DNA of 64,000 nucleotides from Streptomyces sp. NBC_01298. GTDB taxonomy: Bacteria; Actinomycetota; Actinomycetes; Streptomycetales; Streptomycetaceae. The stretch is from assembly GCF_035978755.1 (NCBI RefSeq), contig NZ_CP108414.1:1798001-1862000 (forward strand), in the 5' to 3' direction. A program made the translations under genes and the position numbers. A model generated the notes under the pieces. It had not been told where the DNA came from and did not search any database. It was given only the letters and a program-made list of their open reading frames with translations. Positions 1 to 36,517 of this stretch are shown here, in pieces. How positions within the stretch are numbered: position 1 is the first letter of the stretch; every line of letters starts with the position of its first letter.

Positions 1-435
1 GACCGGGAGGCCTACTTCCTGGCGATTGCCGAGCGGCTCGTCGCGTCCGCGCCCATGCCGCTGATGCTGACGGGGGGCATTGGTCGTCGCGCCTCCGCAG
101 AGCGAGTCCTGACGAGCGGATTCGCAATGGTCGGGCTGGCCACCGCTCTCGCTCTCCACCCCGACCTGCCCACGCGCTGGCAGGAGGGCGAGGACATCGA
201 GGTTACCGCGCTACGCCTCAACTGGCGGGACAAGGACATCGCCAGCGCGGGTGTACTTGCCGTCGTACGGGCGCACATGGGTCGCATCTCCCGCGGCCTC
301 CCGCCTCGCGCCCGGACCTCTGCGTACCTCGCCCTCATCCGCGACACCCTGCGGAATCGAGGAATGACCCGGGCTTACGGGCGGTGGCTTGCCCAGAATC
401 CCGCGCCAGAGGCCACCATGCCGCTCAGCGGCTGA
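1..435 (+). CDS. NADH:flavin oxidoreductase (old yellow enzyme type), C-terminal part
   Basis: The open frame enters from the left edge, so the N-terminus is outside the window; the stop is TGA at 433-435. The visible 144 residues resemble the last third of old-yellow-enzyme TIM-barrel oxidoreductases: the stretch 'MPLMLTGGIGRR' matches the late strand and loop that binds the FMN phosphate, and 'GFAMVGLATALALHPDLP' matches the following turn, where relatives read roughly 'VGLARPLLREPDL'. Such enzymes use NAD(P)H and FMN to reduce activated alkenes. The gene ends about 230 bp before the ImmA-like gene and is probably not part of that operon. The family call rests on the C-terminal pattern alone. 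Confidence 0.65.
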   Translation, partial: DREAYFLAIAERLVASAPMPLMLTGGIGRRASAERVLTSGFAMVGLATALALHPDLPTRWQEGEDIEVTALRLNWRDKDIASAGVLAVVRAHMGRISRGLPPRARTSAYLALIRDTLRNRGMTRAYGRWLAQNPAPEATMPLSG

Positions 436-668: not shown

Positions 669-1247
669 ATGAGGATCGTGCGGAATCGGCGGCTGGAGCA
701 GGAGATGGTCCGGCTGTGTGATGAGTTGTACGTCGGCCTGGGCGAGCCAGCCCCCCGCGACATCACCGAACTGATCGACCGAATAGCCGCGCATCTCACC
801 GTCTACCGTGGCGATCCCAGACGGCCCGTGCGCGTCGTGCGCCGTGACTTCCCGCAGGGCCTTGGCATCGTTTCCGGGCTCTGGCTCGACCGGGAAACCG
901 AAGACGTCATCGTCGTCGCGAAGAGCACCAGTCCCTTCCATGCGCTGGTCATCCTGGGGCACGAGATCTGGCACATGATCAAAGGCCACTGCGGTACTTA
1001 CGTCCTGGGTACGCAGGTCGCCACGCGTCTGATCGGTGATGACGTCCTGACGCCGGCGGACCTCGACGAAGCAGTACGCCTCGTCGCCGCGCGGACACAC
1101 GCCGCAGGAGGTGACGAGGCCGAGGCCGAGCAGTACGGCCGTATGCTTGGCCGGCGGTTTCGCCACTTGGTCGACGTCGACTCCACGCAGCGGGTCCTCC
1201 AAGGTCCGGCTGCCCGTATCCAAGCCTCTCTCGGCAACGGTAGATGA
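669..1247 (+). CDS. ImmA/IrrE-family metallopeptidase (left cassette)
   Basis: A 192-residue protein with the zinc-metallopeptidase motif HEIWH at residues 98-102, in the sequence 'ILGHEIWHMIKGHC', which is characteristic of ImmA/IrrE proteins. Known family members cleave HTH repressors to switch on mobile-element or stress genes. The ATG at 669 is chosen because GAGGAG lies about 10 bases upstream; a GTG at 654 would place this ribosome binding site inside the gene. The stop overlaps the next start as ATGA (1244-1247), so it is translationally coupled to the membrane protein. A second version of this gene lies at 9191-9757 with the same coupling. No HTH gene is adjacent to this left copy, so its target may be the regulator at 9840-10448; that is inference. 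Confidence 0.8.
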   Translation: MRIVRNRRLEQEMVRLCDELYVGLGEPAPRDITELIDRIAAHLTVYRGDPRRPVRVVRRDFPQGLGIVSGLWLDRETEDVIVVAKSTSPFHALVILGHEIWHMIKGHCGTYVLGTQVATRLIGDDVLTPADLDEAVRLVAARTHAAGGDEAEAEQYGRMLGRRFRHLVDVDSTQRVLQGPAARIQASLGNGR

Positions 1248-2416
1248 ACGGCTCGGACTACTACATCCCGGCGGCTGCCCTTGGCATCGCGTTCCTCTCC
1301 AAGCTCCCCGGACTCATCCGGCAGTGGGGCAACCCCATGGTCCGGTCCGTCGCGGGACTGCTCCTCATGTCCAGCGCAGGATTCGCATTCGCCGCGCCCC
1401 CCACCATCACGGTGATCAACCGAGCAGTGGGGCTGCCGAACGTCTCCGCGCCGCTGGTCTACGCCATCCTCAGCGTGTTCAACACGTGTTCCATCGTGCT
1501 CCTCGCGTACTGGCGTGAGGGGTTCGGCATCGAGGTGCAACGCCGCGTTCGGCGGTGGTTCGCCGTATGCGGCGTGGTAGTCGCCTCGCTCGCCCTGTGC
1601 TTCGTCCTAGGTGATGCCCCGGAGGAGCGACTCCGGGACCTGGACACCCACTACGCGTCCACGCCCTGGATCCGCGAAATGATCGTCATCTATCTCTCCT
1701 GGCACATCATTGTCGGCACGGTCGTACCGGTTATGTGCTGGCGGTGGTCTCGCGTAGTCGACGGGTGGCTCCGGGCGGGCCTGTTGACCCTCGTGGCCGG
1801 CTTCGTATTCAGCACCGGCTTCGGCCTGGCCAAGGCCGCGGCCGTCGTCGCGCGCTGGACGGGCGGAGACTGGGACTTCCTCAGCACGGACGTCGCTCCG
1901 CCGCTGGCCAGTGCCGGAGCCGTCCTGACCACCTCCGGCTTCCTGCTGCCGCAGGGTCGCCGCCTGGCCGGGGCATGGGAGACATGGCAGACCTACCGGT
2001 GGATGGGGCCACTGTGGCGCAGGCTCCGCACCCTCATGGGCCAGCCGGTGTCGACCAGTTGGTGGACACCTCTCGAATCTCGGCTCTTCAATCGCGAAAC
2101 GGACATCTACGACGATCTGCTGGCCTTGGCCCCGTACTGCGACCTACAGGTCATGACGGCATATCACGACCCGGGGCCCGACGACGGAGTCGGGCCCGAT
2201 GAAACATGGGCCGCGGCCGCGGCCATAATGATCGCGTTTGCCATCGAGGCCAAGGAATCCGCCACGGAGAGCGACGAGGAGTGCCCGGAACAACGCACTG
2301 ACGCACTCAGCGCCGTGTTCGGCACCGGCACCAAGGGCATCGCCCGCATCTCTCGCCAATACGGAGCTCTTCGCAGCCACACTGCGGCTGTCCCTCTAGA
2401 AGGACACTCCCTATGA
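1244..2416 (+). CDS. MAB_1171c-type multi-span membrane protein (left cassette)
   Basis: A 390-residue protein with several hydrophobic segments in residues 1-235 and a soluble tail of about 150 residues. Signatures shared with the two minus-strand homologues include 'FAAPPTI' near residue 50, 'DAPEERLRDLDTHYAST' near residue 125 followed by 'IREM', and 'FLSTDVAPPLAS' near residue 210. This matches the actinobacterial family annotated as 'MAB_1171c family putative transporter'; its substrate and function are not established. It overlaps the upstream metallopeptidase gene by ATGA, an arrangement repeated in the right-hand cassette, so the two products probably act together at the membrane. The C-terminal tail is the least conserved part between copies. 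The family call is good; the transporter role is only a database label. Confidence 0.75.
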   Translation: MNGSDYYIPAAALGIAFLSKLPGLIRQWGNPMVRSVAGLLLMSSAGFAFAAPPTITVINRAVGLPNVSAPLVYAILSVFNTCSIVLLAYWREGFGIEVQRRVRRWFAVCGVVVASLALCFVLGDAPEERLRDLDTHYASTPWIREMIVIYLSWHIIVGTVVPVMCWRWSRVVDGWLRAGLLTLVAGFVFSTGFGLAKAAAVVARWTGGDWDFLSTDVAPPLASAGAVLTTSGFLLPQGRRLAGAWETWQTYRWMGPLWRRLRTLMGQPVSTSWWTPLESRLFNRETDIYDDLLALAPYCDLQVMTAYHDPGPDDGVGPDETWAAAAAIMIAFAIEAKESATESDEECPEQRTDALSAVFGTGTKGIARISRQYGALRSHTAAVPLEGHSL

Positions 2417-2550
2417 ACAGCCCCCGTCTCTCCGTACCGCGCTCAATCCTGCCTTCCATGCCGTCGATCTTGTAATCCTTTCCAGCCTCTGTCGATACTC
2501 CTCATCGTCCGAGCCATCCGCGAAGCGGCAGTCCTAGAGAGCAACACACG

Positions 2551-3999
2551 ATGACCCAGCAGCCCAACGGCACTACCGGCACCACCCGCGCCGTCATCCT
2601 CGGTGGCAGCCTGGCCGGTACACTCGCGGCCGCCGCACTCGCACCCCACTTCGTGGAAATACTCGTCCTCGAGCGCGACAAGAAGCTGCCCGATACCGCA
2701 GCACCCCGACCCAGACTTCCCCAGGCCGCCCACGCCCACATGCTGTGGTCGGGTGGTGCGGACGCAATCGAGTCCCTGCTTCCCGGCACAACCGACCGGT
2801 GGCTGACGGCCGGAGCTCACCGCGTACCGATCCCCAACGGCATGGTCTCCTACTCGGCCGCCGGCTGGTTCCGGCGGTGGACCGAGACCCACTACCTCAT
2901 CGGCGCCAGCCGCGACCTCATTGACTGGGGCATACGCACCGCGGTCCTAGCGATACCCAACGTCAGCGTGCGTACAGGCATGACCGTCACATCGTTGGTG
3001 GGCAGCGCATCAAACGTGTGCGGTGTACACGTGCTGAACGAGGGCGGCGAGGAGAGCGTGATCGACGCCGACCTTGTGATCGACGCCACGGGGCGCGGCT
3101 CCAAGGTCCTGGAATGGCTCAAGCAGCTCGGCGCCCCCACGGTGGGGGAAACCGTCGTGGACGCCGGGGTACGGTACGCCAGCCGCCGCTACCGCGCCCC
3201 TCAAGGCACCGAATCCGACTGGCCCGTCATCCACATCCAGGCCGACCCGCGGGAAGGCAAACCTGGACAGGTTGTTTCGATCATCCCCATTGAAGACGGC
3301 CAATGGCACGTCAGCATCTCCGGCACACGCGGCGCCGAACCGAGCGCTGATGAGAACCTCTTCGAGGAGTTCGCCAGAGGAGTCCGCCACCCGCTGGCCG
3401 CCGAATTCCTCGCCCGCGCGGAGCCGATCAGCGACGTCGTCGTCTACGGCCGGACCGCCAACCGGCAGCGGCGCTTCGACAAGGCCGCGATGCCCGCCGG
3501 CTTCGTCGTCCTCGGTGACGCCGCCACCAGCCTCAACCCCGTCTACGGCCACGGAATGTCCTCCGCTGCCCTCGGCGCGCTCGCCCTACGCGAGACTGCG
3601 GAGAAGCTGCCAGTGACCGCGCCCAAATTCGCCGCGCGGGCCCAGAAGGCGATGGCCCGACCCGCTGCCGCTGCCTGGCTGCTCGCCGTCGGCCAGGACC
3701 GCTTCTATCCAGGTGCTGTCGGCGAGACGCCCAACCTGACTGACAGGCTCGCAGCACGCTACGTCCACCGTCTCAGCCACACCGCCATCGGCAATTTCCT
3801 CGTCGTCAAGGCGCTCACGGACGTAATGACAATGCAGAAGCCGGCCTCTGTCCTCGGCGCCCCCGGCGTCCTGATCGCTGCGGCACGCGGCCTGCGCAAG
3901 CCCCTGCTCAACGGCCCCGCCCTCACCGCGAGGGAGCAGAGCATCCTGGACCGCGAGCCTCTTCATCGAGCAGAAAAGATCAAGGCCTCCGACCATTGA
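2551..3999 (+). CDS. FAD-dependent monooxygenase (left cassette)
   Basis: A 482-residue flavoprotein. The N-terminal dinucleotide-binding motif is GGSLAG (residues 18-23), followed by an acidic strand end 'VLERD'. The second FAD motif, 'LGDAATSLNPVYGHGM', lies at about residues 319-334, as in p-hydroxybenzoate-hydroxylase-like and squalene-epoxidase-like monooxygenases. These use NAD(P)H and O2 to hydroxylate or epoxidise small molecules; the substrate is unknown. AGAGAG upstream of ATG 2551 can serve as ribosome binding site. The gene follows the membrane protein by 134 bp in the same direction, and the close homologue at 5365-6750 has the same membrane-protein neighbour, so the association looks functional. 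The two proteins share motifs and layout throughout. Confidence 0.8.
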   Translation: MTQQPNGTTGTTRAVILGGSLAGTLAAAALAPHFVEILVLERDKKLPDTAAPRPRLPQAAHAHMLWSGGADAIESLLPGTTDRWLTAGAHRVPIPNGMVSYSAAGWFRRWTETHYLIGASRDLIDWGIRTAVLAIPNVSVRTGMTVTSLVGSASNVCGVHVLNEGGEESVIDADLVIDATGRGSKVLEWLKQLGAPTVGETVVDAGVRYASRRYRAPQGTESDWPVIHIQADPREGKPGQVVSIIPIEDGQWHVSISGTRGAEPSADENLFEEFARGVRHPLAAEFLARAEPISDVVVYGRTANRQRRFDKAAMPAGFVVLGDAATSLNPVYGHGMSSAALGALALRETAEKLPVTAPKFAARAQKAMARPAAAAWLLAVGQDRFYPGAVGETPNLTDRLAARYVHRLSHTAIGNFLVVKALTDVMTMQKPASVLGAPGVLIAAARGLRKPLLNGPALTAREQSILDREPLHRAEKIKASDH

Positions 4000-4247
4000 G
4001 TCTCCTCCTCGGTCACGGTCGGACGGGGCGGCCCGCCGACGGCCTTCATCTCCGAGCGGGTCGGATGCTGGAACTGGACTAAGACTCCGTACACGGACCG
4101 ATGGCCCATTCAGCCACAGAGCGCGCTCGGTGGCGCATCACGTTCCACAAGGCCGAGTCGGACAGGTTGAATCTGCCGGCATTGAAGGGCTATGGCTGTG
4201 GCCCCCCCCAAGCGCCGTGTCTCACACGGACGCCGGTCGACGGGCAC

Positions 4248-5339
4248 CTAGTGACCTGAGTCAGAGATTCGGTGGCAGTAGGCGGCGACTTTGTCGAGGA
4301 TCTCGTCGGCTGTCTTCGTCCAGAGGAAGGGCTTGGGCTGGTCGTTCCAGTCGGCCAGCCATGAACGGATGTCGCGCTCGAGAGCCTGGACGGAGCGGTG
4401 GACTCCACGCTTGAGCTTCTTCTGGGTGAGCTCGGCGAACCACCGCTCCACCAGGTTCAGCCACGACGCACTCGTCGGTGTGAAGTGCAGGTGGAACCGC
4501 GGGTGTGCCAGCAGCCATTTCTTGATGTCCGGCGTCTTGTGGGTCGCATAGTTGTCGAGGATCAGATGGATCTGAAGATCCGCCGGCACTTCTTTGTCGA
4601 TCTTGGCCAGGAACTTCTTGAACTCGGCGGCCCGGTGGCGGCGGTGGAGAGACCCGATGACCTTGCCGGTGGCGACCTCCAGGGCCGCGAAGAGGGTGGT
4701 TGTGCCGGCGCGGATGTAGTCGTGACTGCGGCGCTCTGGAACGCCAGGCATCATCGGCAGGACCGGCTGGGACCGGTCCAGGGCCTGGATCTGCGACTTC
4801 TCGTCCACGCAGAGGACCAGAGCCTTCTCCGGCGGGTCCAGGTAGAGGCCGACCACGTCGCGGACCTTGTCGATGAACAGCGGGTCCGTCGACAGCTTGA
4901 ACGTCTGCGAACGATGCGGAGCCAGCGCGAACGCCCGCCAGATCCTTGAGACGGTCGACTGCGACATTCCCGTGGCCGCGGCCATCGACCTCGTCGACCA
5001 GTGCGTCGCGTTCTTCGGCGTCTCTTCCAGTGTTTTGACGATCACCCGCTCGACATCAGCGTCGGTGATCTTCCGCGGGACACCCGGCCGCGGCTCGTCG
5101 CCCAGCCCGTCCAGGCCGTGCTCCAGAAACCGCCGCCGCCAGGTGCGGACCGTGTCCGGCGCGATCCCAAGCCGCCGCGAAACTTCCATCACCGAATGCC
5201 CGCCCGCGCACTCCAGCACGATCCGCGACCGCTGAGCCAGAGCCTGAGCTGTCGAACGACGACGTAACCAGCCCTCCAGCACAGCACGCTGGGCATCAGT
5301 CACCGACAACGGCGGAATCTTCGGACCGGGACGACTCAT
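4248..5339 (-). CDS. IS630-family transposase, copy A
   Basis: A 363-residue, apparently intact transposase. The N-terminal third contains paired helix-turn-helix segments (about residues 27-75 and 88-140). The DDE catalytic triad is visible as D179 in 'LCVDEKSQ', D262 in 'LILDNYATHK' and E298 in 'NLVERWFAEL'. The reading frame runs to the last base of the element, and its TAG stop (4250-4248) is completed by the duplicated TA and the next flanking base, not by the element. The same is true of copy B. The protein has no frameshift, so the element could be active. Confidence 0.9.
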   Translation of the reverse strand: MSRPGPKIPPLSVTDAQRAVLEGWLRRRSTAQALAQRSRIVLECAGGHSVMEVSRRLGIAPDTVRTWRRRFLEHGLDGLGDEPRPGVPRKITDADVERVIVKTLEETPKNATHWSTRSMAAATGMSQSTVSRIWRAFALAPHRSQTFKLSTDPLFIDKVRDVVGLYLDPPEKALVLCVDEKSQIQALDRSQPVLPMMPGVPERRSHDYIRAGTTTLFAALEVATGKVIGSLHRRHRAAEFKKFLAKIDKEVPADLQIHLILDNYATHKTPDIKKWLLAHPRFHLHFTPTSASWLNLVERWFAELTQKKLKRGVHRSVQALERDIRSWLADWNDQPKPFLWTKTADEILDKVAAYCHRISDSGH

Positions 5340-5373
5340 GCCGAACTAACGACAAACCTCAGACTCAGGTCAC
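4251..5373. mobile_element. IS630-family insertion sequence, copy A (1123 bp)
   Basis: The element carries one transposase gene on the minus strand. Its ends are inverted repeats of 16 bp with one mismatch: the left end reads GTGACCTGAGTCAGAG (4251-4266) and the right end, reverse-complemented, GTGACCTGAGTCTGAG (5358-5373). A TA dinucleotide flanks each side (4249-4250 and 5374-5375). Removing the element and one TA recreates a CTAG tetranucleotide, the preferred IS630-type target. It lies between the two convergent monooxygenase genes and has fused to the 3' end of the right-hand one. It is a different IS from copy B at 16317-17501, although the ends are related. Confidence 0.9.
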
Positions 5374-6750
5374 TAGCAAGAGTGCTGCGGTCGCCGGGGG
5401 CAAGGGCGGCCCAGGCAGGCTTCGCATTTGGGGGCCACACAGAGCCGCGAGGAGTACACGAGGGTTGGCGAGAGCCAAGGGGCCCTTCTTTAGCGTCATG
5501 AGGTCGGTAAGGGCGGTAGTGACCGTGATATCTCCCGTGGCGGTGTAAATCAGTCGGTTCACATACCAGTTCGCCACGTTGTCCGCGACGGTTACCCTCT
5601 TCCCTTCGGCCCCGGGGAAGCGCGCGTCCTGTGCCGTCGCCAGCATCCATGCACCAGCTGCTGGCCGTGCCATGGCACGGCGCGCAAGCTTGGTGAAGCC
5701 TCGCTCCGCAATTCCTCGCCGCTCAGCGACGCGTTGGAGTGCGAGGGCACTCAGGGCCGCAACTGAAAGCCCGTGGCCGTACACGGGGTTCAGGGCCGTA
5801 GCCGCGTCGCCGATCGCGAGGAAGCCATCGGGGAGACGGCGGGCCTTCTCGTAGCGGTATCGCCGGTTCGCTGTGGTGCGTGTGACCACGACGCTATCGA
5901 TGGGTCCGGCCGCCGCGAGTAGGTCCGCTACCAGGGGACTCCTCGTGTTCCGGGCATACGTCTCAAAGTCCTCAGCCCTGTTGGTAGGTGATGCACCTCG
6001 GGTGCCCGAGAGGCTGACAATCCACTCGTCGTGCTCGATGGGGAGGATGGTGGCCACCTTGCCGGGGCGGCCGAGGCGGGGGTCGGCCTGGATGTTGATC
6101 ACGGGCCAGTGTGCAGTCGGTGTCGGCGCCTTGATGCGGGCAGTCGCATAGGTTACGCCGGCGTCCACGGTCTCTACGGGGATGTGCTGGACTCCCAACG
6201 CAGAAAGCCAGTGAGGTCCGCGGGAGGTCCGGCCGGTTGCATCGATGACGAGCTTGGCCTTGACCTCACGCTCGGCTCCGTCGCGGCCACGGACTCGGGC
6301 TCCACGGATTCGGGAGGCGTCGCCGAGCAATGCGATGGGTTCCGTTCCCCACATGATCTGCACGTTGGGAAGGGTTCCCAGCCGGCCGCGAACTCCCCAG
6401 TCGATGAGGTCGCGGCTGGCTGCTATGAGGTAGTGGGATTCGGGCCAGAGCCGGTACCAGCCGCCGGGGCTGAGCGAGACCATGCCTGTGGGTATCGGGA
6501 CACGGTTTGCGCCGGCGTCCATCCATGCGTTCTGGGTTCCAGGGAGGAGGGCTTCGATGGCGTCAGCTCCGCCGGACCAGAACATGTGAGCATGGGCGGC
6601 CTGTGGCAGGCCTCGTCGGGCTTCCGGGCCTGCGGGGAGTTCATCCCGCTCGATGATTGTGATCGTGCGAGCGTGCGGGGCAAGGGCTGCTGCGGCGGCC
6701 ATTCCAGCGAAACCACCGCCCAGGACCAGGACGTCGTCCATCTTGCTCAT
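5365..6750 (-). CDS. FAD-dependent monooxygenase (right cassette), C-terminus altered by IS630
   Basis: A homologue of the protein at 2551-3999, with GGGFAG at residues 11-16 and 'GDAATALNPVYGHGL' as second FAD motif. The ATG at 6750 overlaps the stop of the upstream membrane-protein gene (ATGA), so that start is preferred over upstream in-frame codons. The last codons and the stop lie inside the inverted repeat of IS630 copy A: the protein now ends '...AALLLVT'. Taking the IS out, the frame would continue from 'ALLL' into 'GARRPASV' and stop at a TGA in the left flank (about 4226). Eight native residues were thus replaced by two, and the enzyme may well still function. Substrate unknown. Confidence 0.8.
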   Translation of the reverse strand: MSKMDDVLVLGGGFAGMAAAAALAPHARTITIIERDELPAGPEARRGLPQAAHAHMFWSGGADAIEALLPGTQNAWMDAGANRVPIPTGMVSLSPGGWYRLWPESHYLIAASRDLIDWGVRGRLGTLPNVQIMWGTEPIALLGDASRIRGARVRGRDGAEREVKAKLVIDATGRTSRGPHWLSALGVQHIPVETVDAGVTYATARIKAPTPTAHWPVINIQADPRLGRPGKVATILPIEHDEWIVSLSGTRGASPTNRAEDFETYARNTRSPLVADLLAAAGPIDSVVVTRTTANRRYRYEKARRLPDGFLAIGDAATALNPVYGHGLSVAALSALALQRVAERRGIAERGFTKLARRAMARPAAGAWMLATAQDARFPGAEGKRVTVADNVANWYVNRLIYTATGDITVTTALTDLMTLKKGPLALANPRVLLAALCGPQMRSLPGPPLPPATAALLLVT

Positions 6751-7943
6751 GATGTTGCACTTTCTGATTGGGTTGCTGACCACCGGATCGTCCTGACGAC
6801 CGGGGATTTGTCCATGACCTTGGACAGTCGGATCAGGTCTCCGTCTTCGATGGATCGGATGGTCCACTGGCTGTGTCCATCTGGCACGTGGAGACCGACG
6901 GGTACGTCCTTTGCGGCGGCGGACGCGAGTACGGCGGCGTCGGCTTCAAGCTGGGCTGCTCGCACATCCGTGCGCCAGGCCATGGCCTGCTCGAAGACAG
7001 CCCGGCCGGTCGAATCGTCCAGATAGGGCCCGAGGCGCAGGATGCAGTCGGCTATCTCCCCCTCGACCTGCACCAGCTTCTGGTCAAGGGGGACGAACCT
7101 GCTCACGGTGTGGGCACTGGATGCGGGAGCCGCTCGGCGGAGGGTGTGCCACAACGGTCGCAGTTGCCGGTAGCGCCGCCACTTCGTCCACGTGCCTCGG
7201 GTCGTGTGGGCGATCGGGGGAATCAGGAAACCGACTCCGATCAGAATTGCCGAGAAGGACGCAACGGAGAAAGCAACGTTGGTACTCAGCCAGTCCAGGT
7301 CGTTGCCCGTCCAGCGGGCAACGATCGCCGTGTACTTCAAGCCGTCGTAAAGAAGGTTGAGCAGGTAACCGACCACCATCGTGGCCAGGCCCATGCGGAG
7401 AGTGCCGGAGACCTCCCGGGACCAGCGCCAGCACAAGATGGTCATGGTGACCGCGGCGACGGTATGGGCGAGGAGGTACAGCAGGATCATCTCCCGCATG
7501 TACGGGGTAGATGCGTAGTAGGTGTCCAGGTCCCTGAGGCGCTCTACCGGGGCGTCCGCCAAAGCGAACAGCACGAGCAGCCCTGCGCACACCGAGCTAT
7601 AGGCGATGACGGTGGCCTTCGCCGCTCGGCGGGTTCGGTTCTCGTCCGGGCCGCCCCTCCAGTGGATTAGCAGGACGAGGCAGCTTCCGCTGAAGCCCGT
7701 GAGGATGCAGTAGACCAGCGGCGCGGCTGCGTTTGAGACACCCGTAAGGTCATTAATGATCTTGAGGACGGGCGGTGCCGCAGTAGCGAATACGGCGGTC
7801 GCAACGAGCAGCAGAGCAGTAACGGCCCGCAGGAGCACATCAGTCGGATCGCGCCGGAGCGCCATCACCTTCACAGCGGAGGCGATGGCCAGGAGTCCCG
7901 CTGGGACGAAGAAGACCAGCCCTGCGGAAGCGGACGAGTTCAC
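6747..7943 (-). CDS. MAB_1171c-type multi-span membrane protein (right cassette, second copy)
   Basis: A 398-residue membrane protein starting at GTG 7943. It shares with its two homologues the 'APPV/TI' segment near residue 55, 'DAPVERLRDLDTYYASTPYMREM' (split here as DAPVERLRDLD and YMREM) and 'WLSTNVAFSVAS'. About seven hydrophobic segments occupy residues 8-245, and the soluble tail is about 150 residues. It overlaps the monooxygenase start by ATGA and lies 84 bp downstream of the other membrane-protein gene. Only this side of the locus has two membrane-protein genes; they are divergent enough to be an old duplication. Function unknown. Confidence 0.72.
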   Translation of the reverse strand: MNSSASAGLVFFVPAGLLAIASAVKVMALRRDPTDVLLRAVTALLLVATAVFATAAPPVLKIINDLTGVSNAAAPLVYCILTGFSGSCLVLLIHWRGGPDENRTRRAAKATVIAYSSVCAGLLVLFALADAPVERLRDLDTYYASTPYMREMILLYLLAHTVAAVTMTILCWRWSREVSGTLRMGLATMVVGYLLNLLYDGLKYTAIVARWTGNDLDWLSTNVAFSVASFSAILIGVGFLIPPIAHTTRGTWTKWRRYRQLRPLWHTLRRAAPASSAHTVSRFVPLDQKLVQVEGEIADCILRLGPYLDDSTGRAVFEQAMAWRTDVRAAQLEADAAVLASAAAKDVPVGLHVPDGHSQWTIRSIEDGDLIRLSKVMDKSPVVRTIRWSATQSESATS

Positions 7944-8027
7944 CGGCCGAACCCCATGCTCTTGTCTGCGGCCCGCCGGCTGGAGCTCCTTCGTACGTCA
8001 GGAACGGGGCATCGGGGTGGGGTGCCG

Positions 8028-9194
8028 CTAGATGTGCGCATGGTGCCGACTTTCTGGTGCATTTTCGATCTTGGTGAAGGCGGTGCTCAGTTCGGCGATC
8101 CGCTGGAAGTCGCCTGGCGCGAAGCGTCTTGCGAGATCGGTGCGGTCGTGGGACTCGGAGGTACTGGGCGAGTCCAGGCCCAGCAGTGCCACGCGGATCA
8201 TGGTCGCCTCACCGACGAGCTGGGCCTCGGCTTGGGTCATACCTGCCTCTTCGGCGCGCTCCTGCGCACAGGAGGACGTCCGGGGGTCGAGATGCGGCCG
8301 GAGCTCCAGCAGCCGGTCCGCGATCCCGACGGCGCGGGCGAGTGTTCGGTCGGAAACTGCCCAGAAGGGCACCTGGAGCGTCGAGGCAAAGCGGGAGGAC
8401 TGATGAAGTGCCCGCCATAGCGGGTACATCCGCCGGTATGTGCGCCAGTCTCCCCAAAGGGATTCTCCCCAGGGGCCGACGAGGGGAAGAAGGAATCCAA
8501 CGGCGATCAGCGAGGCTCCGACGCTGGCGAGTTGGGGCGCGGCATCGGTACTCAGACCGTCCCAATTCCCCCCGGCCCATCGGGCTGCGACGGCCACGAG
8601 CTTGCCAGAGGCGAAGGCCAGGTTTGCCACGAATCCGGCGGCGATCGTGGCCAGCCCGCGCTTCAGCCAGACTTGGGGTACCTGACGGGCCCAGCGGAAG
8701 CAGGTGACGGTGACGACCATTCCGACGACCGCGTGGGCAAGGAGATATACGACGACCATCTCCCGTATGTACGGCGCGGTGGCGTAGTAGGTGTCCATGT
8801 CGCGTTGTCGCTCGATCGGAGCGTCGCCCAGGGCGAAGAGCGCCATCAGCACGGCAATGATGCCGACCGTGGCAGCTATCCACACTCTGGCCTGGGCACG
8901 GATCGAAGCGGCGTCTCCGCCCCTCCAGTGGATCAGCAGCACCAGGCAGGCGCAGTTGAAGGCTGCCAGGAGCGAGTAGACGAACGGTGCGGACACATTG
9001 GCAATGCCGGTCCATGAGTTGACCTGTGCCACCGTGGGTGGGGCGCTGAAGAAGAATGCGCAGGCCCCGAGGGCGATCAGCGTGCACGCGGCCCGGAGCA
9101 TGCCGTCACGCCAGCCATGCCGGAGTGACGGCACCTTGGACAGTAGCGCCACTGCCAGGATTCCAGCCGGCAAGTAGTACGCCGAGTCGGTCAT
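8028..9194 (-). CDS. MAB_1171c-type multi-span membrane protein (right cassette, first copy)
   Basis: A 388-residue membrane protein starting at ATG 9194, which overlaps the metallopeptidase stop by ATGA exactly as in the left cassette (1244-1247). Family signatures are 'FFSAPPTVAQVN' near residue 50, 'DAPIERQRDMDTYYAT' near residue 125, 'IREMVVVYLLAH' and 'LSTDAAPQLASVGAS'. The identity of these positions in all three copies suggests they matter for function. Hydrophobic segments cover residues 5-235, and the C-terminal 150 residues are soluble and probably cytoplasmic. No catalytic motif is visible. The conserved coupling to an ImmA-type peptidase suggests the two form a membrane-associated sensor or transporter unit; this is inference. 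Confidence 0.75.
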   Translation of the reverse strand: MTDSAYYLPAGILAVALLSKVPSLRHGWRDGMLRAACTLIALGACAFFFSAPPTVAQVNSWTGIANVSAPFVYSLLAAFNCACLVLLIHWRGGDAASIRAQARVWIAATVGIIAVLMALFALGDAPIERQRDMDTYYATAPYIREMVVVYLLAHAVVGMVVTVTCFRWARQVPQVWLKRGLATIAAGFVANLAFASGKLVAVAARWAGGNWDGLSTDAAPQLASVGASLIAVGFLLPLVGPWGESLWGDWRTYRRMYPLWRALHQSSRFASTLQVPFWAVSDRTLARAVGIADRLLELRPHLDPRTSSCAQERAEEAGMTQAEAQLVGEATMIRVALLGLDSPSTSESHDRTDLARRFAPGDFQRIAELSTAFTKIENAPESRHHAHI

Positions 9195-9757
9195 CGGTCC
9201 AGTCCCCGACCACGGGGTCCCAGACTCGACTGTAGGCGGCCGGCAAGCCCGTACGCCGGAGAACTGGGCCCCTGCTCGACGTGCTGCTGCAGGGCCGCTG
9301 TAAGCATGACCGCGAACCTCTCAGCATCGTGTTCTTCGCGTCGCCCGAAGTTGGTCCGGGCCGCGAGGACCGCGACGACCTCGGAGGGATCGAAGTCATC
9401 GCCGAGCGCGCGGGCCGCCGCTCGCAGGGCGGGCGTGTCGGCGTCCTTGTGGTCGTGGCAGTGCCCCATGAGGAGGTGACCGAGCTCGTGGGTGAAGATC
9501 AGCAGCTGATGCGTCGGGTTGGTGCTTTCCTCGACCGCAATGATCACTCGATCATCGGTCTCCACCAACAGGCCGCTGACCGTACTCGGCGGGAACCGTC
9601 GATAGACGACCTCGACGGAGCGGCCGTCGGCTCGCTGGCACGCGAAGTCGCGGAGCGCGCCGATGATGGCTGCGAAATCACGCGGGACGGGCCGTGGGAT
9701 CCCCGCCAGGACGTCGTCCCGGAGAGACGACAGGTGCTTCTTGCTGGTCTTGCGCAT
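9191..9757 (-). CDS. ImmA/IrrE-family metallopeptidase (right cassette)
   Basis: A 188-residue protein with HELGH at residues 90-94 within 'IFTHELGHLLMGHC', the zinc-binding glutamate-helix of ImmA/IrrE proteases. It corresponds to the gene at 669-1247: the segment before the motif ('VVYRRFP...GLLVETDDRVIIAVEEST') aligns with 'VVRRDFP...GLWLDRETEDVIVVAKST' there. It lies 82 bp downstream of an HTH regulator gene and overlaps the membrane-protein gene. By analogy to ImmR/ImmA, its likely substrate is that regulator, with cleavage relieving repression of the cassette. The family is clear; the substrate is inferred from position. Confidence 0.8.
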   Translation of the reverse strand: MRKTSKKHLSSLRDDVLAGIPRPVPRDFAAIIGALRDFACQRADGRSVEVVYRRFPPSTVSGLLVETDDRVIIAVEESTNPTHQLLIFTHELGHLLMGHCHDHKDADTPALRAAARALGDDFDPSEVVAVLAARTNFGRREEHDAERFAVMLTAALQQHVEQGPSSPAYGLAGRLQSSLGPRGRGLDR

Positions 9758-9839
9758 TGTGCCTCGTGCTTGTTCGTCACCGCCGGTTCCGGTAGCGCGT
9801 ACAGCCGGTGATCCGACGAAACGACTGCAGCGCGGGAAG

Positions 9840-10448
9840 TCACTGGGTGGGCTCGGTCTTCTTGGTCACCAGCAGGCCCGCGACCATGCGGCGCAGGGCA
9901 TCCTGGTCGGTTGGCGGTAGCTGCGAGAAACCCTCCAGCCGGTCCTCGTCTTCGAATCCGCGGTAACTCATGCGTGCGCCGGAGGCGCGGATCACCTCGT
10001 CGCTCAGTTGCCTGAGCAGGGGCTGCAACGCCCTGTCCAGCGCAGGGAGGCTGGGCGAGAGCAGGTAGCCGGGATCCACCCCGAAGAAGGCCTCCAGGCC
10101 TGCTTGGGCGTGTGCTGCCGGCAGTCCGGTGCCGACCAGGAGCTTGCGAAGGGACTCCTTGCTCTGCCCGTACGACGCGGCAATCACGGCAAGGGAGTAC
10201 GTGGCACCGGTATCCGGCGAGAGTCGAAGCTCCAATGCGGCTTCGAAGCGCCGGACAAATCGCTGCCGAAGGTCGCCTTCGTTCACTTCCTCCCGATTCA
10301 GCATGGCCTGAATCATCTCTTCAGAATCGCCGGTGACCCGGCGGAGCGCGGGCAGATCGAACAGATCCTGCGGCTGGCGATTCAGGTTCTCCGCGTACTG
10401 AGCCAAAGCATCCAGCGTCACGTTGAGTGCAGATCGTGCGTCATGCAC
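9840..10448 (-). CDS. HTH-type regulator upstream of the right cassette
   Basis: A 202-residue soluble protein starting at GTG 10448 with AGGAGA about 8 bases upstream. Residues about 65-125 ('RRFEAALELRLSP...YSLAVIAASYGQSKESLRKLLVGTGLP') read as an XRE-like helix-turn-helix, followed by the 'LEAFFGVDPGYLL' segment typical of actinobacterial XRE regulators. A less clear helical repeat precedes it. It is first in the minus-strand cassette, ahead of the ImmA-type peptidase, which fits a repressor controlled by proteolysis. A 6-bp-arm palindrome lies 96 bp upstream of its start (10544-10559). The left cassette lacks an equivalent gene. Confident about DNA binding, less so about repression. Confidence 0.65.
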   Translation of the reverse strand: MHDARSALNVTLDALAQYAENLNRQPQDLFDLPALRRVTGDSEEMIQAMLNREEVNEGDLRQRFVRRFEAALELRLSPDTGATYSLAVIAASYGQSKESLRKLLVGTGLPAAHAQAGLEAFFGVDPGYLLSPSLPALDRALQPLLRQLSDEVIRASGARMSYRGFEDEDRLEGFSQLPPTDQDALRRMVAGLLVTKKTEPTQ

Positions 10449-11322
10449 GGATGTGTCTCCTACATAGTCGACTCAGGTCCAGCTTCGAAGCATGGGCGTG
10501 CCGGGAGCGTAACCCCTGATGGCATCGACACAACAGAGGGTTGGGCAACTTTTGTTGCCACACCGAAAAGAGTTGTTGACATGCGACACCAAGGAATGAA
10601 GAATCACCCTGCGTGCACAGGGGGCGAGTTCACCGTGCCCTAACCGGCTGGAGGCTCAGCGGGATCGAACCCCTCCGAACAGGCCAATCGGAGGCAATCA
10701 ATATTTACTTTTGGCCAAAACACCGACCATCCCGCAAAGTGGTTTTAGTGCACGGGTGGGCACGAAATGGACATAGGCGTCCGTGTCGCCCGAATATTGC
10801 GCCCATCGCAGCCCTGAGCCCCTACGCGCTTACTCGTCGGCATTTCTGGAGCCACGCCCAGACCTTCACTACAGACTCGGCCGTCGCCCTGCGCATCTAC
10901 GGCAGGACCGGCCAGCAGCCGGGGACCCCACCCCTCGCACCCAAGTCGTGATGGTCGGATTCTCCGCAGGTCAGGCGGGTGCTGCGTGGAGTGCGTCGGT
11001 TCTAGAGCTATGTCTAGATCTTGCGCGGGGGTCTGCGTAGCTTGTTGGCAACCGCCGGACACGGCGGGCAAGGGACACACCAGGGGGAGGGTCCGGTGAG
11101 GACACAGCGCCAGTCACGCACCAGTGGCGGCTAGGCAAACAGAAACGGCGCCGGGGAGGAACTCCCAGACGCCGACTGCGCAGCCTCGGAGAGCGTCAAC
11201 TCTCCTGCGCTGCCCAGCAGATCACCTTGGGCCCCGGCAAGGGCCCGGCAGATCACCTACCTCACTCCGCGCCGGCCCCTTTCCATGGACAGCGGTGCGG
11301 AATCATCACGGGAGAGTGTCGC
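10449..11322. other. Long intergenic region between cassette and replication operon
   Basis: No convincing gene is seen in these 874 bp; the open frames lack good starts and coding bias. The region holds the regulator's promoter side with the palindrome above. It also holds an AT-richer stretch around 10690-10760, and a tRNA T-arm-like sequence (minus strand, about 10650-10680, containing GGGGTTCGATCCC). There are two TCTAGA hexamers 6 bp apart at 11001-11018 and a small GGAGAG/CTCTCC hairpin at 11188-11205. It marks the change from the oxidoreductase cassettes to plasmid-type genes, so an attachment site or replication origin could lie here. No integrase gene accompanies it in the window. 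Confidence 0.4.
10544..10559. promoter_or_regulatory. Palindrome upstream of the HTH regulator (possible operator)
   Basis: GGCAAC-TTTT-GTTGCC is a perfect 6-bp inverted repeat with an AT-rich centre, 96 bp upstream of the regulator's GTG start. Its size and position suit an XRE-type autoregulatory operator. The sequence TTGTTGACATG follows at about 10571 and contains a -35-like TTGACA on the plus strand. Binding is not shown. Confidence 0.35.
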
Positions 11323-11643: not shown

Positions 11644-12704
11644 TGGCACGCATCCGCACGATCAAGCCCGAGGCCTTCGAGTCGGAAGACCTGGCCTCGG
11701 TCGACGTCACCGCCATGGTCACCTTCTTCGGACTGCTCACCCAGGCCGACGACCACGGCCGCTTCCGCGACCACCCGGCGATCATCGCCGGACGGCTCTG
11801 GGCTCTCCGCGCCGACCACACCCCGGCAGACGTGGCCAGGGACCTCGACCAGCTCGCCGGCGCAGGTCTCATCTGCCGCTACACCGGATGCGACGGCGGC
11901 CAGTACCTGCACTTCGTGACCTGGGAGAAGCACCAGAAGATCGACCGCGCCTCGGCGTCGCGGCGACCGCGGTGCCCCGCGCACCAGGGCCACAGCAAGT
12001 GCAGCGAGTGCGACGGGGCCTCGTGCCCTGCCTCCTCCGCTCCGGCCACGACGGTGACACCGACCACTCCCGCAGAGCTCTGCGGTGACCGCTCGCAGGA
12101 CTCGATGAATACTCGACGAGCCCTCGATCGCACCATTCCGCCGGATTCAGCGCCCTCGGCTGCCCCGGGGGACCCCGGCGCCGGCAGCAACACCGGTCTG
12201 AAGTCGGCTCCGGCGGCGCCCCACCAGGGCCTCCCCGGGGGTCCTGAGGAATCCGCAGGTCAGACGGTTCTCGATGAGGCCTCGATACAACTGCGCGAGG
12301 GCTCGGCGCCTGGATCTAGGATCCTGGATCTTGGATCTTTCCCTAAGGGGGGCGATGCCCCCGCGCCGGAGTCCGCACGCGCATCGGTCTCGGCAAAGGA
12401 CCTGCTGGCCGAGTACGTGTCGGCTTGCTCGCAACCGGTGCCGCAGACAGTGCGCGGACTGATCGGCCGCCACACCAAGGGGCTGCTGGAAGAAGGCTTC
12501 GACCCGGCGGTCATCCGGGCCGCCCTGGAGCGCCTCCGCGTCAAGGGCCTGCACGCCAGCGTCCTCCCGAGCCTGGTCAATGAGGCACTGAACGCCTCCC
12601 CCTCGGCGTCCGCCTCCGGCGCGGGGCTCTGGGCCAGCGCCCGGCCCGCCCATCAGCCCTGGCAGAACCCCACTGACAGCTCGGTCTACGAGGAGTCGCT
12701 GTGA
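11643..12704 (+). CDS. DnaD-like replication initiation protein
   Basis: A 353-residue protein beginning 'MARIRTIKPEAFESEDL', a hallmark of a Streptomyces phage/plasmid family thought to start replication. The N-terminal 110 residues form a predicted winged helix ('TFFGLLTQADDHGRFRDH', 'LDQLAGAGLICRY', 'YLHFVTWEKHQ'). Next comes a short cysteine-bearing stretch (C-H-C-C between residues 110 and 140), a disordered linker, and a C-terminal helical domain (residues about 245-320, 'LIGRHTKGLLEEGFDPAVIRAALERL') like the DnaD/phage replisome-organiser domain. Translational coupling on both sides (TGATG, then GTGA) to the neighbouring genes, including a DnaC-like ATPase, supports the replication role. 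The initiator function is inferred from family and neighbours. Confidence 0.65.
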   Translation: MARIRTIKPEAFESEDLASVDVTAMVTFFGLLTQADDHGRFRDHPAIIAGRLWALRADHTPADVARDLDQLAGAGLICRYTGCDGGQYLHFVTWEKHQKIDRASASRRPRCPAHQGHSKCSECDGASCPASSAPATTVTPTTPAELCGDRSQDSMNTRRALDRTIPPDSAPSAAPGDPGAGSNTGLKSAPAAPHQGLPGGPEESAGQTVLDEASIQLREGSAPGSRILDLGSFPKGGDAPAPESARASVSAKDLLAEYVSACSQPVPQTVRGLIGRHTKGLLEEGFDPAVIRAALERLRVKGLHASVLPSLVNEALNASPSASASGAGLWASARPAHQPWQNPTDSSVYEESL

Positions 12705-13438
12705 CCCGACGTACCCACACTCCCGAGCCGCTGGCGCTGGGCGAGACCAACTCGGTGAGCCGCATTCGGGCGAAGTTCGCGGCGATGGGGATCGACCCGG
12801 GCCGATCGGTGGCCGACACGCCGGCAGCGATCCCCGCGCTGGAGGCGGCGCACGCGCGGATCCCCTCGCGCTACCAGCAGGCGACGATCTCAGACCCGCG
12901 GGTCAGCCAGTGGGTGGACGAGGTCGTCGAGCGCTCCTCGGCTCCACAGACCGCTGGGCGCCGGGAGGTCGCGACGGGTCCCTCGCTGCTGCTGCTTGGA
13001 GCGACCGGGGTCGGCAAGACGCACGAGGCCTTCGCCGCGATCCGAGCCCTAATCGCCACCGGGATCGTCGTCCGGTGGGAGTCCGTCACGGCCGCCGACC
13101 TGTATGCCGAAATGCGCCCTCGGCAGGGCGTCGACCCCGAATGGATGCTGCGGCGCCTTGTCCGGATCCCGGTCCTGCACCTGGACGACCTGGGCGCGGC
13201 AACGACCACCCGGTGGACCGAGGAGCTGACGTACCGGCTGATCAACCACCGGTACAACCGCGAGCTCCCGACGCTGATCACCAGCAACCTCGCCCCGGCG
13301 CGCACCCCCTCGATGCCTGCCGAGCAGCCCGTGCTACGCGAGCAGATCGGCGACCGAGTCGCCTCTCGCCTCGTCGGAATGTGCCAGCAGATCGCCATGA
13401 CCGGACCGGATCGCCGCCGGACACGAACCTCCGCTTGA
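12701..13438 (+). CDS. DnaC/IstB-like AAA+ ATPase (helicase loader)
   Basis: A 245-residue ATPase starting at GTG 12701, overlapping the previous stop as GTGA. Walker A is 'LLGATGVGKTHEA' (about residues 97-109), Walker B is 'VLHLDDLGA' (about residues 157-165), and sensor 1 is 'TLITSNLAP' (about residues 190-198). This set and the length match DnaC/DnaI-type helicase loaders. The partner DnaD-like gene directly upstream makes a plasmid primosome role likely: the initiator binds DNA and this protein brings the host replicative helicase. All key motifs are intact. Confident. Confidence 0.85.
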   Translation: MTRRTHTPEPLALGETNSVSRIRAKFAAMGIDPGRSVADTPAAIPALEAAHARIPSRYQQATISDPRVSQWVDEVVERSSAPQTAGRREVATGPSLLLLGATGVGKTHEAFAAIRALIATGIVVRWESVTAADLYAEMRPRQGVDPEWMLRRLVRIPVLHLDDLGAATTTRWTEELTYRLINHRYNRELPTLITSNLAPARTPSMPAEQPVLREQIGDRVASRLVGMCQQIAMTGPDRRRTRTSA

Positions 13439-13550: not shown

Positions 13551-14171
13551 TTGCGATACATCACCACCCACGAGAACCCCCTTGTCGGCATGCTCGGGAT
13601 CACCGACCGGACCTGGGCCGAGCGGGGCTCCTGCTACGGCATGGACGCAGCCGCAGCCGACGAGATCTTCTTCCCGACGGTCACCAAAACGAAGAGCACC
13701 GAGGAAGCGAAGGCGATCTGCGCAAGCTGCCCGGTCGTGCAGCAGTGCTTCGACGGCGCCATGGACGGCGACGCCCGGAGGGGATTCCGAGCCGGACTCA
13801 CCGAGGCAGAACGGCGGCCCTTCCACAACAAGGTCGCCAAGCGCCTGGACTACAGCCGGGTGCACGCCATCTTCCGGGGACGCGACGTCGCCCTGTCGAT
13901 TCCCGAGCGCAACGCTGTGGTCCGCCAGGCCTACCTGCGGGGGTGGAGCGTCGAACGCCTGGTGATGCTGCTGCAGAGCGAGTTCGACTACACCCGCCGG
14001 TTGATGCGCGAGCAGGCCGAGCTGGTGACGGACCGCGACCGCGAGTGGCTCCGACAGATGTCCCGCGCGCGCGAAGCCGGCGATCCGGCGAGGGCCTCGA
14101 CCGCACCCACCACCGACGCCGCTGCCGCCTGCGGCCCGGAGCTCCGAACGGCCTTTGGGGAGGCCGCGTGA
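13551..14171 (+). CDS. WhiB-like iron-sulfur transcription factor
   Basis: A 206-residue protein. Four cysteines arranged C28, C57-x2-C60, C66 ('GSCYG' and 'ICASCPVVQQC') would hold a [4Fe-4S] cluster as in Wbl proteins, and 'GFRAGLTEAER' takes the place of the usual GVWGG turn. The C-terminal half is a long basic extension with a helix-turn-helix-like segment (residues about 105-150) absent from short Wbl proteins. It starts at TTG 13551, with GGAG 6 bases upstream, and overlaps the next gene by GTGA. Wbl proteins are common on actinobacterial plasmids and phages and often modulate sigma-factor-dependent transcription. The role here, perhaps plasmid copy or transfer control, is inference. 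Confidence 0.82.
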   Translation: MRYITTHENPLVGMLGITDRTWAERGSCYGMDAAAADEIFFPTVTKTKSTEEAKAICASCPVVQQCFDGAMDGDARRGFRAGLTEAERRPFHNKVAKRLDYSRVHAIFRGRDVALSIPERNAVVRQAYLRGWSVERLVMLLQSEFDYTRRLMREQAELVTDRDREWLRQMSRAREAGDPARASTAPTTDAAAACGPELRTAFGEAA

Positions 14172-15685: not shown

Positions 15686-16317
15686 CGGATCCACTCTCGG
15701 GCCCACCCAAAGAGACCCACTCGACACCCACTAACTCGACCTCAGGGCGAGCAAGTTATCGGCCAAGACACTCTTCCCCGTTGGGGAAGGTGTCTTGGCC
15801 AGAGCCCGCCCCGGGGGTGGCGGGTCCGGACCAGCGCCGGGGGGCACTGGTCCGGGAGGCGGCGACCGAGGGCGGATCGCAGCCGGAGGAGAAGCAACCG
15901 CCCCGACGCCGACAGCGCGTCGCACCGAACAGTTCGCGTAAGCGCTCCCCAAAGCCGCCATCCGACAAGCGAAGTCACGTCTGCAGCGTCCGCCTGAACG
16001 ACGACGAGAGGACCTTGCTGTCGAGCGCCGCAGCAGCAGTCCACACGACCCTGCCCGCCTTCCTCGCCCGCAGCGGCATGGCCGCTGCGCACGACCTCGA
16101 TAACAGCGCCGCCGCCATCGCCGGCCACCGCGAGATGGTCTCGGAGCTGTTCGCCGCCCGCCGGCACCTCGGCCGCGTCGGCACCAATCTCAACCAGATC
16201 ACCCGCGCCATCAACTCCGGCGGCCAGCCCGAAGAACTGGACGCGGTCCTCGCCGCCGTCCGCCGGGCCGTGGACCGCGTCCAGGCCGCCACCGACCACC
16301 TGCTGAACCAGACCTAG
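15682..16317 (+). CDS. mobC: MobC-like relaxosome accessory protein
   Basis: A 211-residue protein. The first 95 residues are basic and low-complexity. The C-terminal 110 carry the MobC pattern: a ribbon-helix-helix-like 'SVRLNDDERTLLSS', then 'FLARSGMAAAHD' and 'GTNLNQITRAINSGG'. MobC binds oriT and assists the relaxase in nicking. ATG 15682 overlaps the previous stop; an in-frame GTG at 15790 is an alternative that would leave the oriT-like hairpin (15761-15800) mostly upstream of the gene. The TAG stop (16315-16317) coincides with the insertion point of IS630 copy B, which kept the stop intact but split mobC from the relaxase gene. Confidence 0.8.
   Translation: MTDPLSGPPKETHSTPTNSTSGRASYRPRHSSPLGKVSWPEPAPGVAGPDQRRGALVREAATEGGSQPEEKQPPRRRQRVAPNSSRKRSPKPPSDKRSHVCSVRLNDDERTLLSSAAAAVHTTLPAFLARSGMAAAHDLDNSAAAIAGHREMVSELFAARRHLGRVGTNLNQITRAINSGGQPEELDAVLAAVRRAVDRVQAATDHLLNQT
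15761..15800. repeat. oriT-like hairpin
   Basis: Near-perfect inverted repeat: GGCCAAGACAC plus CTTCCCC pairs with GGGGAAG plus GTGTCTTGGCC, giving 18 base pairs with one bulged T (15772) and a 3-nt GTT loop. It lies at the 5' end of mobC and close to a relaxase gene, the classic place for an origin of transfer, and it is far too strong to be chance. A terminator function inside mobC is less likely. The nick site would be expected in the AT-richer bases just left of it (15745-15760) or right of it; it cannot be assigned from sequence. Confidence 0.55.
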
Positions 16318-35761: not shown

Positions 35762-36517
35762 TCATGCGGCGAGGATGAAGTCCTCGCGGGTGAGGGTCTG
35801 GTTGAGGGTTTCGGTAAGCCGGTCGGCCGCGATCCGGCTGTACTCGGCGGTCTTCTCCACGCCGATAAAGCTGCGGCCCTCCAGCAGAGCGGCGACTCCG
35901 GTGGAACCGCTGCCGGCGCAGAAGTCGAGGACAGTGCCCTTCTCGGGGCAGATCTTCACGAGCTCGCGCATGACCGAGACCGGCTTCTGCGTGATGTGCT
36001 GACGCTCCTTACCCGAGGGCTGCGAGGCACTGTAGAGACCAGGCAGGTAGACCTCGTTCTGGGAGCCGTCCATGGCGCCCTTGCTTCCCCAGATGACGAA
36101 TTCCAGGTTCTGGGTGAAGCGGCCCTTCTGGGGCCTGGCCTGCGGCTTGTGCCAGCCCAGGATGCCGCGCCACAGCCAGCCGGCGGCCTGCAGGGCGTCG
36201 GTCGTGGTCGGCAGCTGCCGCCAGTCGGTGAACAGGAGCGCGGTGCCGCCCGGCTTCGTCAGGCGGTGGGCCTCGGTCATGATCTGCGTCAGCCAGAACG
36301 AATAGGACCTCTGGTCCATGTTCTCGCCGGTGAAGTCCGGCAGAGCGTGCTTGGCGTCGTTGGAGGTGTACTTCTGCCGCGCCGTACGGGAGGTCCTCTC
36401 CTTCGCCGTCCGGCCGCCGCTGTTGTACGGCGGGTCGGTGATGACGGAGTCGACGCAGGCGTCGGGCAGGGTGGCGAGCACGCTGAGCGCATCGCCCTGG
36501 TGAAGGGAAAAGGGCAA
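35762..36517 (-). CDS. Site-specific DNA methyltransferase (adenine-N6 or cytosine-N4)
   Basis: A 251-residue methyltransferase. Catalytic motif IV is 'VITDPPYNSGG' (DPPY at about residues 28-31) near the N-terminus, and the S-adenosylmethionine motif I is 'VLDFCAGSGSTGVAAL' (about residues 196-211) near the C-terminus. This order (IV before I) marks the beta class of amino-methyltransferases. 'QHITQKPVSVMRELV' precedes motif I, as in related enzymes. TTG 36517 gives the shortest complete protein; no strong ribosome binding site is seen. No restriction endonuclease gene is adjacent, so it is solitary and could protect transferred DNA from host restriction. Located beside the hairpin-rich region upstream of the transfer operon. 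Confidence 0.88.
   Translation of the reverse strand: MPFSLHQGDALSVLATLPDACVDSVITDPPYNSGGRTAKERTSRTARQKYTSNDAKHALPDFTGENMDQRSYSFWLTQIMTEAHRLTKPGGTALLFTDWRQLPTTTDALQAAGWLWRGILGWHKPQARPQKGRFTQNLEFVIWGSKGAMDGSQNEVYLPGLYSASQPSGKERQHITQKPVSVMRELVKICPEKGTVLDFCAGSGSTGVAALLEGRSFIGVEKTAEYSRIAADRLTETLNQTLTREDFILAA

Follow-up and report, generated by a model that had tools for sequence, protein, structure and literature searches.

What do a metallopeptidase, a membrane protein and a flavoenzyme do together when their genes lie side by side, and how did two such gene sets come to face each other? This question is raised by a stretch of 64,000 nucleotides from Streptomyces sp. NBC_01298 (NZ_CP108414.1, positions 1,798,001 to 1,862,000; the whole of it is called the window here). 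An original prediction, made from the letters alone, had described two convergent cassettes, each with an ImmA/IrrE-type peptidase (ImmA), a membrane protein of the MAB_1171c family (MAB) and a flavin adenine dinucleotide (FAD) monooxygenase, and had read them as a functional unit. Our results support the unit well, through co-occurrence, gene order, start-stop overlaps and the correlated divergence of neighbouring genes. We also propose a role for it, to which we give about an even chance. By analogy with studied proteases of this type, each cassette would be a receptor-gated ImmA protease switch, which inactivates the helix-turn-helix (HTH) repressor of the operon and turns on an interchangeable enzyme.

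Three cassettes and an IS630 element

The open reading frames (ORFs) and the protein families agree with the presence of two convergent cassettes. The left one, on the forward strand, has the order ImmA, MAB, FAD. Its putative peptidase, ImmA_L (669..1247; the ORF is open from a GTG at 654), carries the HExxH motif as HEIWH; it had no match in the Pfam and NCBIfam scans and was placed in the family by its alignment with the right copy (33-34% identity). The start of MAB_L (1244..2416; NF042915, 116.7 bits; PF20182), a predicted seven-helix membrane protein with a DUF6545 tail, lies on the ImmA_L stop in an ATGA overlap. FAD_L (2551..3999), a FAD monooxygenase of the Lsd18/MonCI family, completes the set (phmmer against the Lsd18/LasC structures, E about 1e-104).

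The right cassette, on the reverse strand, reads HTH, ImmA, MAB, MAB, FAD. HTH_R (9840..10448) is a putative EspR-like regulator; the Pfam scan of this protein gave no HTH hit, and it was placed by a profile (A5 against EspR structures, E 1.5e-4) and by a structure model (predicted local distance difference test, pLDDT, 80.8). It is followed by ImmA_R (9191..9757; HELGH; PF06114, 28.3 bits with a cut-off of 22; PADLOC capP, E 9.6e-6), by MAB1 (8028..9194; NF042915, 123.9 bits; AlphaFold2 pLDDT 90.2), whose start again lies on the ImmA_R stop as ATGA, by MAB2 (6747..7943; NF042915, 136.2 bits) and by FAD_R (5365..6750; Lsd18-type structure match, E 1e-105). Note that the MAB2 stop and the FAD_R start also overlap as ATGA, a junction absent from the original prediction.

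Most of what had been claimed for the two cassettes held. The ATGA overlaps between ImmA and MAB are present in both, all three window MABs exceed the NF042915 cut-off of 100 bits, as expected for one family, and the left and right proteins are homologous (53% identity over 423 aa for FAD, 33% for ImmA and 40% for MAB_L and MAB1). The ImmA/IrrE assignment is less firm than first given: both proteins have HExxH, with Pfam recognising the right copy only. The second MAB and the HTH gene announced for the right side are there, the latter without a Pfam hit.

The number of cassettes had to be revised. A third, complete cassette lies just upstream of the window (locus L013), on the same strand as the left one, and ends at window position 435. 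The upstream genes in L013 are Xre, HTH, ImmA, two MAB, FAD and an old-yellow-enzyme (OYE) gene; of this last one, an OYE-type NADH:flavin oxidoreductase (PF00724, E 2.9e-49; L013:16945-18435), the 3' end falls in the window (1..435, forward strand) and the bulk of the gene upstream of it. The complete run is HTH, ImmA, MAB, MAB, FAD, OYE, ImmA, MAB, FAD, then an IS630 element, then the inverted right cassette. This element (4248..5376, reverse strand; transposase 4248-5339, NF033545, E 1.9e-81), which has 22-nt terminal inverted repeats (4248-4269/5355-5376, 91% complementary), sits between the convergent pair. The last codons and the stop of FAD_R fall inside its repeat; the FAD_R alignment to Lsd18 reaches residue 497 of the 500-aa ORF.

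Are these cassettes copies of one another? The left one shares 75-84% identity with the HTH-ImmA-MAB-MAB-FAD cassettes of three other loci (L083, L088, L120; 82-83% for ImmA_L), and is without the HTH and the second MAB that these relatives carry. The HTH, the ImmA and the two MABs of the upstream cassette are 68-86% identical to one operon type found in L023, L028, L038 and L042, which also holds an OYE and a second FAD; in L023, L028 and L038, as here, the OYE gene comes after the first FAD. The right cassette is the most diverged of the three, and FAD_R has its nearest relative in the L023-type operon, whose second FAD is 56-60% identical to it. Moreover, the identity of FAD_L to FAD_R, 53%, is lower than that of FAD_L to its own relatives. 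Since the left and the upstream cassette each have nearer relatives in other Streptomyces than among their neighbours here, these identities indicate that the three cassettes are separate lineages, assembled in a region rich in mobile elements. The claim that one unit had been kept here as two diverged versions face to face was not upheld, and the idea that a single cassette had been duplicated on the spot was rejected on the same ground.

The loci of relatives, 79 of them under the name Streptomyces, were the best 80 of 337 found with a cassette-type query, so counts taken from them are biased. Among these 80, convergent pairs, some of them partial, occur in three (L032, L041, L061), and two cassettes in tandem are seen in others, such as L028 and L029.

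Conservation of the module

The original prediction named two outcomes that would speak against it, families that are seldom neighbours in other genomes and left-right pairs that do not align; neither was observed. From 128 places with a MAB_1171c match we kept 80 regions, in 33 genomes of the genus; this genome (G000), G185, G186 and rows that were weak or fragments had been left out, and tandem hits merged. ImmA lies directly upstream of MAB in 75 of them; in the five exceptions, three are at contig ends, one has ImmA farther away and one has no ImmA. Outside the genus (20 of 24 places in the class, 18 genomes), ImmA is directly 5' of MAB in 20/20 regions, with an HTH gene upstream on the same strand in 15/20. 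FAD behaves differently: it is found directly behind MAB in 28/80 genus regions, directly behind the MAB run in 26 of the 80 ImmA-MAB modules, and in 0/20 regions outside the genus. From these counts, HTH-ImmA-MAB appears to be the older core, joined later by FAD, which we saw in the genus alone. The MAB family itself is present in 36/41 genomes of the genus; family matches were obtained in 37/197 genomes of a class-wide draw (26 above the curated cut-off) and in 13/149 of a phylum-wide draw (4 above it).

Start and stop overlap in 31/80 ImmA/MAB pairs, and in a further 37 an in-frame start lies no more than 15 nt away; the FAD start overlaps the MAB stop in 6/28 and 24/43 pairs. Neighbours also diverge together, both ImmA with MAB (rho 0.72, 92 within-genome pairs) and MAB with FAD (rho 0.66, 26 modules).

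Starting from ImmA instead, MAB was directly downstream at 76/95 places (G000 rows and two second fragments left out). Of the 19 MAB-less places, 15 were fetched: one holds ImmA alone, three have MAB elsewhere (FAD between, or another order), and the others are the HTH-ImmA pairs weighed below. These HTH-ImmA-only pairs were seen in eleven genomes (L184-L194). In the loci looked at, their flanks match those of MAB-bearing core loci, which suggests presence and absence at one core site, where HTH-ImmA stays while the downstream part may be absent.

Is the FAD enzyme a true part of the cassette, where it occurs? A profile built mainly from cassette FADs, whose bit bands measure likeness to MAB-linked FADs, matched at least 84 places in 37/41 genus genomes. 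With the 9 G000 rows left out, 31/37 FADs at or above 500 bits lie within 1.5 kb of a same-strand MAB, compared to 3/38 below that line; the scoring covered 41 of up to 169 first-look candidates per genome, and the lower bands may be incomplete. Since the bands measure likeness and the 500-bit line was drawn after the list was seen, we conclude that the tie to the cassette holds for one FAD branch and not for such enzymes in general. Chance adjacency was rejected by these proximity counts together with the gene-order counts of the module. In a quick tree of 74 FADs, which has one very long branch (L066), all 48 MAB-linked sequences fall in one group of 57 (Shimodaira-Hasegawa-like approximate likelihood ratio test 86), with 5 label changes compared to 21.7 in shuffles; nine 'free' FADs are in this group, four of them being the second FAD of OYE operons. 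The tree was made from the FADs of the 80 regions, of this genome, of 17 chosen relatives' loci and of 20 regions in which the FAD lies away from any MAB.

A candidate switch and its rivals

In the switch that we propose, each cassette would process one input. MAB would be a seven-helix membrane receptor, not a transporter, with an outer face that senses a ligand. Its cytosolic helical tail (DUF6545) would activate or release the co-translated ImmA metallopeptidase, and active ImmA would then cleave the EspR-like HTH regulator of the operon, as ImmA acts on ImmR and IrrE on DdrO. Loss of the HTH protein would derepress the operon together with its output enzyme, a Lsd18/MonCI-type FAD epoxidase here and a short-chain dehydrogenase/reductase (SDR), a P450, an amidohydrolase, an aldo-keto reductase or an amidase elsewhere.

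The proteins have features consistent with these roles. In ImmA, E142, A145 and E146 of the E-x-x-A-E motif are invariant in 9/9 rows, both window copies included; its downstream acidic residue is presumably the third zinc ligand. The peptidase gene adjoins an Xre-like HTH gene in the right and upstream cassettes, not in the left one, and the HTH protein can be aligned with EspR over its C-terminal part, an extra N-terminal helical part being present in the model. The earlier idea of a membrane-linked protease controlling a regulator fits these sequence features. Searching ImmA and MAB sequences against solved structures gave no hits up to E 1. The MAB model predicts seven helices in an arrangement like that of G-protein-coupled receptors (GPCRs), followed by a helical tail that would be cytosolic (about residues 244-388 in MAB1), and the structural neighbours of this predicted structure are receptors.

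This fold is also what speaks against MAB being an exporter, an alternative in which HTH-ImmA senses stress or the product and switches on the flavoenzyme together with a transporter for what it makes. The NCBI name of the family, 'putative transporter', is in favour of export, as is the M. abscessus MAB_1171c mutant, which forms about 50% less biofilm, transport being assumed (PMC8707978); yet the part of that paper dealing with the mutant gives a phenotype and shows no transport. In addition, MAB is more widely spread than the FAD enzyme whose product it would carry. We consider the exporter unlikely.

Several observations weigh against the receptor-gated switch. Foldseek with the MAB model gave no significant match (best E 0.077), and seven-helix bundles look alike; note that a fold missing from the fold-search lists was not counted as excluded. 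Family-wide conservation of the outer loops (1.90, 1.85 and 1.58 bits) does not exceed that of the helices (1.53-1.98), and the cytosolic part, taken as a whole, ranks among the lowest, with 1.53 bits. Loop conservation, not being seen family-wide, was rejected as proof of a receptor. The HTH family lies directly 5' of ImmA in only 39/80 modules. The left cassette has no HTH gene of its own, and may borrow that of the upstream cassette, which is on the same strand and in line. Besides, 11 of the 15 fetched ImmA loci without MAB directly downstream consist of an HTH-ImmA pair and lack both MAB and FAD; therefore HTH-ImmA can exist without the presumed receptor. Regarding the output, ImmA and FAD diverge together only loosely (rho 0.42 in 26 modules, 0.18 in 7 within-genome pairs), and HTH and FAD do not (rho 0.10, 16 modules). 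Finally, the HTH promoter and the MAB-FAD gap share 35 9-mers compared to 31.9 expected, that is, with no excess, and an operator common to both was rejected for this reason. Of all these results, the HTH-ImmA loci without MAB, the missing common operator, the Foldseek outcome and the lack of an HTH gene in the left cassette weigh most.

Upstream of the HTH_R gene, an inverted repeat, GGCAAC-N4-GTTGCC, with a TGTCAAC (10544..10581) is a possible operator, or mere promoter sequence. TGNCAAC half-sites are enriched upstream of HTH genes (87 compared to 13.9 expected under a Markov model, in 79/120 loci). Since many of these loci are orthologous and TTGACA is the -35 consensus, this enrichment was not used as evidence.

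What would the switch turn on? Among solved structures, Lsd18/LasC and MonCI come closest to FAD_L and FAD_R, over nearly the full length (E 1e-86 to 1e-105). Where FAD is absent, nine genes found -3 to 170 nt behind MAB were scanned. One of them gave no hit; such a gene can encode an amidohydrolase, SDR, P450, aldo-keto reductase or amidase, or a protein of the esterase-like, NUDIX or HipA-like kind. In the motif check, no ketosynthase motif was found in the window, in L013 or in 28/28 MAB-FAD regions; this check is weak because the motif occurred in just 1/20 control regions away from MAB.

These results bear on an extension of the switch, a self-made signal loop of the quorum-type autoinduction kind: MAB would sense a diffusible epoxide produced by the FAD enzyme of the cassette, helped in some cassettes by OYE. 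Such a loop would agree with the FAD branch tied to MAB cassettes, with the MAB-FAD correlation and overlaps given above, and with a regulator cluster present in 60 of the best 80 of 337 loci, the one scanned member of which has a MmyB-like ligand-binding domain. On the other hand, FAD is not behind MAB in 52/80 regions while the rest of the module stays, and the 28 MAB-FAD regions have no ketosynthase motif, therefore no backbone maker in sight. We regard the loop as improbable. A flavoenzyme that makes a signal, as first suggested, is possible, and a weaker idea than the unit itself, since FAD is optional and other enzymes can replace it. At its widest, the receptor-gated switch might represent a class of signalling systems in actinobacteria, where a GPCR-like seven-helix receptor directly gates a co-translated ImmA, the repressor is destroyed and the cassette epoxidase makes the receptor's ligand, with Streptomyces collecting lineages as private channels; this would be a long shot.

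If the receptor reading is true, a family named for transport would turn out to comprise many bacterial sensors that are as yet unexplored. To our knowledge, the trigger of protease activity is known for few ImmA/IrrE proteins, and a conserved partner with the shape of a receptor, translated together with the protease, would supply one within the cassette itself. A polyether-type epoxidase branch with no polyketide machinery seen nearby points, in turn, to unknown small molecules.

The cassettes adjoin a conjugative-element-like region (window 11000-62000), which encodes an IstB-like ATPase (12701-13438), WhiB (13551-14171), a MobA/VirD2-type relaxase (17520-19238), a DNA methylase (35762-36517), an NlpC/P60 protein (36991-38115), a DUF317 protein (58795-59631) and a TraG/VirD4 coupling protein (60292-62082). 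A second IS630-like transposase (16314-17399) is related to the one between the cassettes (E 4e-143). Rfam (gathering threshold) and tRNA scans found none. This genome has 12 MAB_1171c matches, 11 of them above the cut-off. In a further cassette of it (L018 7243-9128), the MAB looks chimeric by eye in the alignment, its first half resembling MAB1 of the upstream cassette and its second half the MAB2. Plasmids also carry the family: 33 records match MAB, and MAB genes are present on large linear Streptomyces plasmids (L181-L183). No phage matched MAB at 1e-5.

The relaxase and coupling-protein genes and the plasmid records would suit a type II toxin-antitoxin or addiction module, in which ImmA is the toxin, HTH the antitoxin, and MAB and FAD are passengers aiding persistence on mobile elements. 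One plasmid record even annotates its ImmA as 'toxin-antitoxin system, toxin component'. COG2856-Xre pairs are among the predicted toxin-antitoxin systems of PMC2701414, which discusses them as a putative toxin-antitoxin or protease-repressor system and sets Xre-membrane pairs aside. The same paper favours a protease that cleaves its repressor for COG2856, and reports that no type II system with a membrane component had been detected (PMC2701414). Furthermore, the HTH-ImmA pairs of 11 genomes and the HTH-ImmA-MAB sets of other genera look regulatory, and toxin-antitoxin loci are not expected to carry FAD or other metabolic enzymes. We hold an addiction module to be very unlikely.

Comparison with known systems

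In the open PubMed Central literature, we found no description of this combination of genes; it may be described elsewhere. In the same literature, MAB_1171c is named in PMC8707978 only, and DUF6545 was not found. Members of the family (NF042915, DUF6545) are labelled transporter, whereas the window MAB model suggests a receptor-like seven-helix fold.

The closest parallels are ImmA/ImmR of ICEBs1 and IrrE/DdrO of Deinococcus, in which a protease inactivates a repressor (PMC2701414 and PMC7907104, respectively). As in these systems, an M78-type HExxH peptidase is encoded beside an Xre-like HTH protein. Unlike them, the cassette encodes a seven-helix membrane protein directly behind the peptidase and an optional output enzyme, cleavage here being putative. 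A switch made of an HTH protein and a metallopeptidase is also present in CapH/CapP of the cyclic-oligonucleotide-based anti-phage signalling system (CBASS). ImmA_R resembles it through the capP match, whereas the other 7 of the 8 cassette proteins scanned with PADLOC had no match to a defence model.

The known Lsd18/LasC and MonCI epoxidases belong to polyketide pathways. The cassette FADs are their close homologues; unlike them, they form a branch tied to ImmA-MAB, and none of the 28 MAB-FAD regions shows a ketosynthase motif. As regards the regulator, HTH_R aligns in its C-terminal part with EspR of Mycobacterium and differs by the extra N-terminal helical part, and no ESX-1 role is implied. 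Finally, the Streptomyces conservons combine cvnA-D with a P450. They too are signalling cassettes of several genes that occur repeatedly and include an oxidative enzyme, although built from unrelated proteins (kinase, GTPase).

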